This document shows positions 3,658 to 44,613 of a stretch of DNA of 64,000 bases, in pieces (within the stretch, counting starts at the first letter, position 1; every line of letters starts with the position of its first letter). The notes under the pieces were generated by a model. That model worked only from the letters and a program-made list of their open reading frames with translations, did not search any database and had not been told where the DNA came from. The stretch comes from Thermococcus aggregans (GTDB lineage Archaea > Methanobacteriota_B > Thermococci > Thermococcales > Thermococcaceae), in NCBI RefSeq assembly GCF_024022995.1, contig NZ_CP099582.1:1663054-1727053 (forward strand). Reading direction: 5' to 3'. Made by a program: the position numbers and the translations under genes.

Positions 3658-3705
3658 CCCAACTCTTTTATACCTCTTCAACAAAAAATGGAAAAGGTGA
3701 TGCTC

Positions 3706-4938
3706 ATGAAAGCATACATAAGCGAAAACGTGCAGGGGATCTACGCCTTTGATGGAGAAGGCAAACTCATAGGAAAAAGAATCTTCACGGAGAAGCCAGA
3801 AGTTGCATTGGACGAGCTCCTAAAGGGAGAAGTCACAGAAGACCTCACTGCTTTCATAAAAGAACTGAAAGAGAAAGGGTACTCAAGTTTTGTGTTCGAA
3901 CATCCGGAGCTGAGCAGAAACGTGAGGGAGCTCGGTTTCGAAGCTGAATTCGAATTCCCCAACTTGGCTGGGGAGAGACTTAGAGAAAACCCCGCGGAGT
4001 TTTTAGGAGAAGAGTGGTTTGAGAAGTACTTCACAGTGGGAGTGGCTTTAACCAGGCTTAGGATACAGGAGCAGAGCGGTGCAAGGGACAAGATGGTAAT
4101 CCAAGCAATAGAAGCTCTTGACGACATTGACAAGGTCATAAACCTCCTTGTTTCCAGACTCAGGGAGTGGTATTCCCTCCACTTCCCCGAGCTTGACGAA
4201 CTTTTGCCCAAGCACCCGCAGTATGTGAGCTTTGTTAAGACCATTGGACACAGAGACAACATTACGAGGGAGATGCTGGAATCCCTCGGATTGGGAGAAA
4301 ACAAGATAGCAAAAATCCTTGAAGCAAAGGAGAAGACAATGGGTGCATGGATGGATGAAAAGGACATCAAGGTTATCCAAGACTTGGCAAAGGAAATCGA
4401 CGACCTCTACAAGCTGAGAAGCGAAATCGAGGACTACATTGACAAGGCAATGGACGACGTCGCTCCAAACTTGAAGGCTCTAGTGGGAGCGAAGCTTGCT
4501 GCCAGGCTGATTAGTCTGGCTGGTGGTCTAAAAGAGCTGGCAATGATGCCGGCATCGACGATTCAAGTTCTCGGTGCAGAAAAAGCCTTGTTCAGACACC
4601 TAAGAACCGGTGCAAAGCCACCAAAGCACGGAGTTATTTACCAATATCCAGCTATCAACAGGTCTCCATGGTGGCAAAGGGGTAAAATTGCAAGAGCCTT
4701 GGCTGGAAAGCTTGCAATAGCAGCTAGAGTTGACTACTTCTCAGGTGAATACATAGCAGAGGAGCTTAAGAAGGAGCTTGAAGCAAGAATTAAAGAAATC
4801 AAGGAGAAGTATCCAAAGCCACCAAAGCGCAAAGAGAAGCCCAAGAAAGAGAAGAAGAGATTTAAGAAGAAAGAAAAAGGAAAGAAATTCAAGGACAAGA
4901 AGAAAAAGAAAGGAAAAGAGAAAGGCAGGAGGAGGTGA
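3706..4938 (+). CDS. C/D box sRNP core protein Nop5 (Nop56/58-like)
   Basis: Scaffold of archaeal C/D sRNPs: it binds L7Ae-bound guide RNA and fibrillarin and dimerises through a coiled coil. Visible in order are an N-terminal fibrillarin-binding domain, a long helical coiled-coil region around residues 110-240, and the NOP domain with its GAKPPKHG segment. A very Lys-rich tail covers roughly the last 45 residues and is typical of Thermococcales. The ATG at 3706 has GGTGA upstream; an in-frame ATG at 3688 would add six residues but lacks a site. The fibrillarin start follows five bases after the stop codon. Confidence 0.95.
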   Translation: MKAYISENVQGIYAFDGEGKLIGKRIFTEKPEVALDELLKGEVTEDLTAFIKELKEKGYSSFVFEHPELSRNVRELGFEAEFEFPNLAGERLRENPAEFLGEEWFEKYFTVGVALTRLRIQEQSGARDKMVIQAIEALDDIDKVINLLVSRLREWYSLHFPELDELLPKHPQYVSFVKTIGHRDNITREMLESLGLGENKIAKILEAKEKTMGAWMDEKDIKVIQDLAKEIDDLYKLRSEIEDYIDKAMDDVAPNLKALVGAKLAARLISLAGGLKELAMMPASTIQVLGAEKALFRHLRTGAKPPKHGVIYQYPAINRSPWWQRGKIARALAGKLAIAARVDYFSGEYIAEELKKELEARIKEIKEKYPKPPKRKEKPKKEKKRFKKKEKGKKFKDKKKKKGKEKGRRR

Positions 4939-4943
4939 TGTAA

Positions 4944-5624
4944 ATGAACGTTAAAAAACACAAATTCCCTGGCGTTTACATTGTCATTGATGATGACGGC
5001 AGCGAGAAGATAGCGACCAAAAACCTCGTCCCAGGACAGAAGGTTTACGGTGAGAGAGTTATCAAGTGGGAAGGGGAAGAGTACAGAATATGGAATCCAA
5101 ACAGATCAAAACTTGCTGCTGCTATCCTTAACGGACTTAAAAACTTCCCGATAAAGCCCGGAACAACCGTGCTTTACCTTGGAATAGCGAGCGGTACCAC
5201 AGCTTCTCACGTGAGCGACATCATAGGGTGGGAAGGAAAAATCTTTGGTGTTGAATTTTCCCCAAGAGTCCTTAGAGAGCTCGTCCCACTTGTAGAAGAA
5301 AGGAGAAACATCATACCCATTTTGGGCGATGCAACAAAGCCCGAAGAATACAGAGCGCTGGTTACTAAAGTGGACGTAATCTTTGAGGACGTTGCCCAGC
5401 CAACGCAAGCTAAGATACTCATAGATAACGCTAAAGCTTACCTCAAGAGAGGCGGCTACGGTATGATATCCATTAAGAGCAGGAGCATAGACGTTACAAA
5501 GGAGCCGGAGGAAGTTTTCAGGGAAGTTGAGAAAGAACTTAGCGAATACTTCGAAGTCGTTGAGAGAATCTCCTTAGAGCCATATGAAAAGGACCACGCA
5601 TTGATAGTTGTCAGAAAGCCTTGA
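4944..5624 (+). CDS. flpA: Fibrillarin-like rRNA/tRNA 2'-O-methyltransferase
   Basis: SAM-dependent 2'-O-methyltransferase of C/D sRNPs, 226 residues, matching the archaeal length. The SAM-binding motif is seen as LYLGIASGT (residues 77-85), followed by GVEFSPR (about 102-108), and IFEDVAQP contributes the catalytic Asp region. GGAGGTGATG precedes the ATG with good spacing. It works with Nop5 upstream. A C/D guide RNA in this same window (36964-37019) would be one of its substrates' guides. A T-rich tract at about 5650-5671 probably ends the transcript. Confidence 0.96.
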
Positions 5625-36843: not shown

Positions 36844-36935
36844 AACGCTCTTTAACAGCCCTGCCAATACATGTTTTTCTCTTTTCCTTTGGTCTTGGGC
36901 TAAACGGCATAGGTATTAAAATCCTTGAGGGAAAC

Positions 36936-36941
36936 TTAAAA
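36936..36941 (+). promoter_or_regulatory. TATA box of the C/D sRNA gene
   Basis: TTAAAA in CTTAAAAGG lies 28-23 bases before the predicted 5' end of the sRNA (about 36964), the expected archaeal spacing. Confidence 0.45.
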
Positions 36942-36963
36942 GGCAATAAGGGGAGTATAAAAT

Positions 36964-37019
36964 AGCGGATGATGATTAACTTGAGCTGATTGATGAAGAG
37001 CCCTATGAGCGCTGACGCC
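36964..37019 (+). ncRNA. C/D box sRNA guiding 2'-O-methylation of tRNA-Met C34 (sR49-like)
   Basis: All boxes are present in order: C box ATGATGA (36969-36975), D' CTGA (36986-36989), C' TGATGA (36991-36996), D CTGA (37012-37015), closed by GCG/CGC ends. The D guide CCCTATGAGC (37001-37010) is fully complementary to GCTCATAGGG at 44538-44547, the anticodon and first intron bases of the tRNA-Met gene in this window. Position N+5 upstream of the D box (37007) pairs with 44541, which is C34. The pyrococcal sRNA sR49 is known for this target. The D' guide (about 36976-36985) has no target I can name. The 3' end overlaps nob1 antisense by 17 nt. Confidence 0.9.
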
Positions 37020-37488
37020 TTTTCCTCTTCTTTTTGGGGAGCAGTCTAACCCGGCTTCCACAGTCGGGGCAAATATTATCCGGAGGCTGAGTTTCGAACT
37101 TTCTTCCGCAGCCGATGCAAACGTAGCGCCATTTTATGACCTTTTTTATCCCTCGCTTCAGGGTTCTGAACTTGAGACCAAGAAGGGTTGCAATGTTTTG
37201 CAGGTTGTAGTCATCGGTAAATATCTCCGCTTTAAGCTCATAAGCCAAAGCAAGTATCTCGATGTCAGCTTCGCTTAGCTCTCCAAGCTCGCCAGTTTCT
37301 AGGGCTTTTCCCTTAACAGCTTCTATACTCTCTTTTGAGGGAACCATTACCTTAACTTTGCCAACACTTATTAGGCTCTCAACAAAAAGCCTTGATTCCG
37401 GGTCTTTAATCTCTTCAAGCACTTTTGGACTTGTGACCCCTTCCACATCGACCCCTTGGATAAATATTGCAGTGTCTATGACTAGCAT
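37003..37488 (-). CDS. nob1: Endoribonuclease Nob1 (PIN domain, zinc ribbon)
   Basis: 161 residues. The PIN domain has D5 (VIDTAIF), D75 (EADIEILA) and D92-D93 (FTDDYNLQN); the C-terminal zinc ribbon has C124-x2-C127 and C140-x2-C143, then a basic tail. Nob1 trims the 3' end of 16S rRNA during small-subunit maturation. Its stop region overlaps the 3' end of the C/D sRNA on the other strand. Confidence 0.93.
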
Positions 37489-44505: not shown

Positions 44506-44613
44506 GCGGGGGTGGCTCAGCCTGGTCAGAGCGCCCGGCTCATAGGGTTGCTCCCCTTCGGGGGAGCCTGGGAAACCGGGAGGTCGCGGGTTCGAAGCCC
44601 GCCCCCCGCACCA
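44506..44613 (+). tRNA. tRNA-Met (CAT), elongator type, with anticodon-loop intron
   Basis: Acceptor GCGGGGG/CCCCCGC, discriminator A and encoded CCA (44611-44613). The anticodon stem CCCGG/CCGGG encloses CTCATA, then an intron of about 30 nt (about 44545-44574) carrying a 7-bp hairpin with TTCG loop (44550-44567). The CAT anticodon is at 44541-44543. Thermococcales carry such an intron in elongator tRNA-Met. The guide of the sRNA at 36964-37019 pairs with 44538-44547, so methylation of C34 would precede splicing. Confidence 0.93.

Follow-up and report, generated by a model that had tools for sequence, protein, structure and literature searches.

The window, the whole 64,000-nucleotide stretch of Thermococcus aggregans DNA analyzed here, carries at 36965-37017 (+) what we read, with a probability of about 0.93, as an archaeal C/D box sRNA of conventional type that belongs to the functional group sR41/sR-tMet and acts on C34 of pre-tRNA-Met. 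The identification, the target, the N+5 site and the argument of an earlier note that methylation comes before splicing all hold at the sequence level.

The sRNA gene and its boxes

Window 36965-37017 (+) matched Rfam RF01126 (sR41) over the full model (1-53) with 66.7 bits and an E value of 5.5e-13. The gathering cut-off of this family is 54 bits, and the same site scored 52.3 in a genome-wide search run with other filters. The earlier note had claimed complete C, D', C' and D boxes; all four were read in the sequence, and the family match lay above the cut-off. The elements of the gene are as follows.

36930 to 36942, plus strand: putative archaeal BRE/TATA element GGAAACTTAAAAG, about 24-35 bases 5' of the sRNA
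36965 to 37017, plus strand: C/D box sRNA gene (RF01126, sR41; sR49, the Pyrococcus tRNA-Met guide, in the literature)
36969 to 36975, plus strand: C box ATGATGA, from the sequence
36976 to 36985, plus strand: D' guide TTAACTTGAG, ten bases, orphan and unconserved, from the target scan and relatives
36986 to 36989, plus strand: D' box CTGA, from the sequence
36990 to 36996, plus strand: C' box TTGATGA, immediately 3' of the D' box, from the sequence
36997 to 37011, plus strand: D guide AGAGCCCTATGAGCG, of which 36999-37010 pairs with pre-tRNA-Met, from the rRNA/tRNA target scan and 89 of 94 genomes
37012 to 37015, plus strand: D box CTGA, from the sequence; G37007, the fifth base upstream, faces C34

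The C (RUGAUGA), D' (CUGA), C' and D boxes, with interbox spacings of about 12 nt, follow the archaeal C/D pattern, with a C' box that begins with U (UUGAUGA). The guide is complementary to a target whose N+5 site is C34 of elongator tRNA-Met, as that pattern also calls for. Element GGAAACTTAAAAG belongs to an upstream sequence common to most members of the window's genus and is the putative BRE/TATA element of the sRNA gene.

Pairing with elongator pre-tRNA-Met

The target gene lies on the same strand of the window. ARAGORN overlooked it because it has an intron, whereas Rfam detected it.

44506 to 44613, plus strand: elongator tRNA-Met(CAT) gene with a 30-base intron (Rfam RF00005, 53.8 bits)
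44545 to 44574, plus strand: intron GGGTTGCTCCCCTTCGGGGGAGCCTGGGAA, whose bases 1-5 pair with the guide, read from the sequence
44538 to 44549, plus strand: 12-bp guide target, made up of exon 1 (G31-A37) and intron bases 1-5, from the target scan
44541, plus strand: C34, the predicted 2'-O-methylation site by the N+5 rule

A ten-base complement between 37001-37010 and 44538-44547 had been proposed from the letters alone. It is exact, and the decamer GCTCATAGGG occurs at only two places in the window, the paired sites, against a chance expectation of 0.10. The duplex itself is longer than proposed. The wobble pair G37000-T44548 and the pair A36999-T44549 extend it to 12 bp (11 Watson-Crick, 1 G-U) between guide 36999-37010 and target 44538-44549. 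G37007, the fifth base upstream of the D box, faces 44541, in agreement with the claim that the N+5 site is C34.

The D guide was scanned against the 16S, 23S and 45 tRNA genes of the genome with pairing forced at the fifth base upstream of the D box. C34 of elongator tRNA-Met was the best site across this set. Among shuffled guides, 2 of 200 reached at least 11 Watson-Crick pairs anywhere in the 16S/23S/tRNA set, so the shuffle result for the D guide by itself is suggestive, and the comparative evidence decides. The match to tRNA-Met is not a chance one, because it recurs in 89 of 94 genomes.

Conservation in relatives

Matches to RF01126 were found in 59 of 94 Thermococcaceae genomes, spanning all six genera. 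A pattern of guide core and D box with a C' remnant was present in 89 of the 94 genomes, and in 73 of the 74 with at least 90% completeness and at most 5% contamination. Control matches to this pattern search never numbered more than a single one. The entropy of the D guide is a biased measure in loci gathered by a pattern that contains the guide; the loci collected through Rfam suffer less from this bias and give a concordant picture. A compensatory change between guide and intron was sought, and none was demonstrable: neither partner shows any variation in the ten paired bases, and changes at the outer positions follow no clear pattern.

In GTDB genomes, a scan recovered sRNAs with the same guide from archaea of the Hydrothermarchaeota type, along with candidates from two genomes of methanogens. 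At five Hydrothermarchaeota-type loci (L191, L196, L205, L211 and L214), the tRNA-Met D guide was joined with the D' guide GTGATGGGCGAA, which matched 16S near E. coli C1402 with 11 Watson-Crick pairs and 1 wobble pair when scored on the 16S of the window genome.

The intron and the order of methylation and splicing

The tRNA-Met intron is placed directly after A37. A canonical bulge-helix-bulge (BHB) can be drawn for it, comprising the anticodon stem, bulge AAA, helix CUCA/UGGG, bulge UAG and the intron hairpin (-21.9 kcal/mol), and this arrangement has the expected two 3-nt bulges with a 4-bp helix between them at the 37/38 junction. In this drawing, C34 is paired within the 4-bp central helix (CUCA with UGGG). 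Structure prediction at 37 °C gives pre-tRNA-Met a minimum-energy fold other than the canonical BHB, which counts against our best explanation. An intron-bearing elongator tRNA-Met was found in all but one Thermococcaceae genome, the exception (G003) giving no full-length match. The intron start GGG and the end TG[AG]GAA are invariant in all relatives read, and the hairpin loop is variable. At locus L152 (G046), the intron is 16 bases long, with the loop almost gone and both conserved ends kept.

In the mechanism that we propose, L7Ae, Nop5 and fibrillarin would assemble on the C/D and C'/D' motifs, and the D guide would capture unspliced elongator tRNA-Met through G31-A37 and intron bases 1-5. 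Fibrillarin would then methylate the ribose of C34. The sRNP would have to open the BHB, and then depart, before the splicing endonuclease acts. The guide spans one entire side of the helix (its 5' strand), the bulge that contains the 5' splice site and the start of the intron, so the guide duplex and the BHB should, on paper, be mutually exclusive. C34 itself would lie within the central helix of the BHB, so that the sRNP would have to vacate the site first. This would set the order in pre-tRNA-Met, with methylation of C34 ahead of splicing. Genes for protein machinery of the C/D sRNP (3688-5624) also lie in the window.

3688 to 4938, plus strand: Nop5, C/D sRNP scaffold protein (Pfam PF01798, 257.9 bits)
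4944 to 5624, plus strand: archaeal fibrillarin, 2'-O-methyltransferase (Pfam PF01269, 343.9 bits)

Specificity among three CAU tRNAs

The core GCTCATA is common to three CAU tRNAs, where it offers 7 Watson-Crick pairs with the correct N+5 geometry. The third of these tRNAs (L086) is, from its sequence, probably tRNA-Ile. The predicted duplex energy was -22.4 kcal/mol with the precursor versus -14.1 kcal/mol with the spliced elongator anticodon region, and -13.1 and -11.4 kcal/mol on the anticodon regions of the initiator (L098) and of tRNA-Ile (L086), respectively. Since initiator tRNA-Met and tRNA-Ile(CAU) share just 7 bp with the guide, the intron would supply the specificity, and pairing with it may distinguish elongator tRNA-Met among three tRNAs with the same loop. 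After splicing, elongator tRNA-Met would present the same 7-bp core as the other two.

The shared core, with its correct geometry, also makes it conceivable, if unlikely, that the substrate is spliced elongator tRNA-Met, possibly along with initiator tRNA-Met and tRNA-Ile(CAU), and that the intron pairing is incidental. A report of Cm34 on the initiator would fit such an activity: the accessible part of PMC7668247 assigns Cm34 of P. furiosus to tRNA-Met^i. However, the guide bases that face the first three intron bases are as invariant as the exon-pairing bases in every homologue read, the predicted pairing with the spliced substrate is much weaker, and published reasoning prefers the precursor (PMC2584109). 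The guide and the intron are those of the elongator, so the assignment in that accessible part may possibly reflect a mislabel or a separate activity. If the intron-less initiator truly has Cm34, intron pairing would not be strictly needed, or another activity would be at work, and the specificity argument would be weakened.

The nob1 overlap and a second architecture

The 3' part of the sRNA gene overlaps a protein-coding gene on the opposite strand.

37003 to 37488, minus strand: nob1-like PIN/zinc-ribbon nuclease gene (Pfam PIN_6, 68.2 bits; PDB 2lcq, 8e-74)

In members of the window's genus, the sRNA and the nob1-like gene lie tail to tail, with the nob1 stop codon TAG (37003-37005) antisense within the guide. 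The stop lies at the identical offset in the guide in 38 of the 61 distinct contexts with nob1 nearby, and the offset is the same in both sRNA architectures. The stop and the last residues of nob1 are antisense in the guide (37003-37017) in the window and likewise at L004, L006, L013, L027, L052, L063 and L127.

This overlap, seen in those 38 contexts, is what would speak for the guide being conserved as antisense coding of the nob1 C-terminus and not as a guide, an explanation that we consider scarcely credible. The guide keeps its exact sequence where the end of nob1 is elsewhere, where the gene lies kilobases off or on the same strand, and in Hydrothermarchaeota-type genomes with no nob1 match in the fetched locus. 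The boxes and their spacing are likewise preserved. The nob1 reading frame as the agent that keeps the guide is refuted by these displaced cases.

A second form of the sRNA, found in most members of the large sister genus (g4), has the identical D guide, ends GGGC...GCCC and a conserved D' guide TCCAAGACGGG. Its C box is usually GTGACGA and its D box is CCGA. Examples are at L052 (near 5190), L127 (near 5143) and L224. This form gave a weak match to RF02163 and fell below the cut-off for RF01126; in genome G001 (L155), a form matched both families weakly. Guide TCCAAGACGGG fits 23S at CCGTCTTG with 8 Watson-Crick pairs in the 23S of the window genome, a value within the null range, and CCGTCTTG is offered as a lead to its target. 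In g4, and also in two genomes of genus g3, a second C/D-like unit with the guide GGACTGGCC immediately precedes the tRNA-Met sRNA in tandem (L224 on the minus strand, L114 at 1885, L005 at 1487 and L024 at 1488). A simple complement search found no target for GGACTGGCC.

The D' guide

The earlier note found no target for the D' guide and proposed a search with its complement. For TTAACTTGAG, a scan of 16S, 23S and 45 tRNAs gave nothing above chance, with a best result of 6 Watson-Crick pairs of 7 where shuffles usually reached 6-8. The D' guide stretch is altered at almost every position in relatives of the same architecture, and their D' guides, when scanned against the rRNA and tRNAs of the window genome, gave scattered sites and no consistent target. 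Most likely, then, TTAACTTGAG does not serve as a guide.

PMC2584109 suggested 23S G1950 as the target of an orphan "sR41". This site is unsupported here, the window D' guide having no 23S match, and the "sR41" of that paper may be a different RNA under an older numbering.

The intact D' and C' boxes, the 15 bases by which the sRNA overlaps the 3' end of nob1 antisense, and the conserved D' guide of the sister-genus form could be taken as signs of a second function, with the D' side guiding on a target outside rRNA and tRNA or the sRNA serving as an antisense regulator of nob1 mRNA. Such bifunctionality is very unlikely: the rRNA/tRNA scan gave no target for the D' guide, the guide drifts freely between close relatives, and the nob1 overlap is missing from part of the family.

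For the locus as a whole, we consider, at somewhat less than even odds, one ancestral position at the nob1 tail. The half of the sRNA that serves tRNA-Met (D guide, D box and nob1 stop) would have stayed fixed there, while the other half was swapped wholesale. In the window's genus and the Pyrococcus-like genera, the D' guide would be an orphan subject to drift, and in the sister genus a conserved rRNA-type guide with altered boxes. The guide that spans the intron junction would allow one C/D RNP to discriminate elongator tRNA-Met against the two remaining CAU tRNAs.

Relation to known guides

A paper of 2008 (PMC2584109) relates that sR49 had been predicted as the guide of tRNA-Met Cm34 in Pyrococcus, which bears out the literature name given in the earlier note, and its authors identified 18 candidate sRNAs for the site. 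That paper also states, for Pyrococcus and other archaea, that the guide duplex includes part of the intron and that splicing must wait for methylation. An intron-spanning guide with methylation before splicing is thus already published, and the window case is a good annotation, not a discovery. The Rfam name sR41 and the literature name sR49, compared by description, probably differ in the numbering scheme only.

The window sRNA resembles RF01126 sR41 (Pyrococcus) in its full-length match, identical D guide and boxes, whereas its D' guide TTAACTTGAG departs from the consensus, as in nearly every relative. With Pyrococcus sR49 (Clouet-d'Orval 2001, as cited in PMC2584109), likened by description alone, it shares the target, the position, the intron pairing and the methylation-first order. 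The sR-tMet of Haloferax volcanii (RF02163) was studied experimentally (Joardar 2011, as cited in PMC6601510 and PMC4033218) and, by these citing accounts, acts on the same nucleotide, C34 of elongator pre-tRNA-Met, through the same kind of exon-intron pairing. The window sRNA scores 31.4 bits against RF02163, below its cut-off of 50, and so falls outside that family. The sR-tMet RNAs of Halobacteria have degenerate boxes and a long D'-C' spacer of 19-21 (PMC2584109), versus 0 in the window sRNA.

The C/D guide in the tRNA-Trp intron (Cm34/Um39) likewise directs wobble methylation of an intron-containing pre-tRNA, but it lies inside its target's own intron, whereas the window sRNA is a separate gene about 7.5 kb from its target. 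Human SNORD97/SCARNA97 are also C/D guides for C34 of elongator tRNA-Met (PMC6601510, accessible part). These are different guide RNAs with different hosts, and the accessible part of PMC6601510 does not describe a guide at the exon-intron junction.

We found no description of the two-architecture comparison in the accessible literature, and it may be new; the nob1-tail overlap and the two architectures at one locus may add new details. The window case confirms, in another genome, a textbook type of RNA-guided wobble methylation that is possible only with the intron present. If pairing with the intron sets apart one of three tRNAs whose anticodon loops are the same, this could help explain why the intron is retained in all these genomes. 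The exchange of one guide half at a fixed locus, with a stop codon embedded in the other, would offer a compact case of target change in C/D RNAs.
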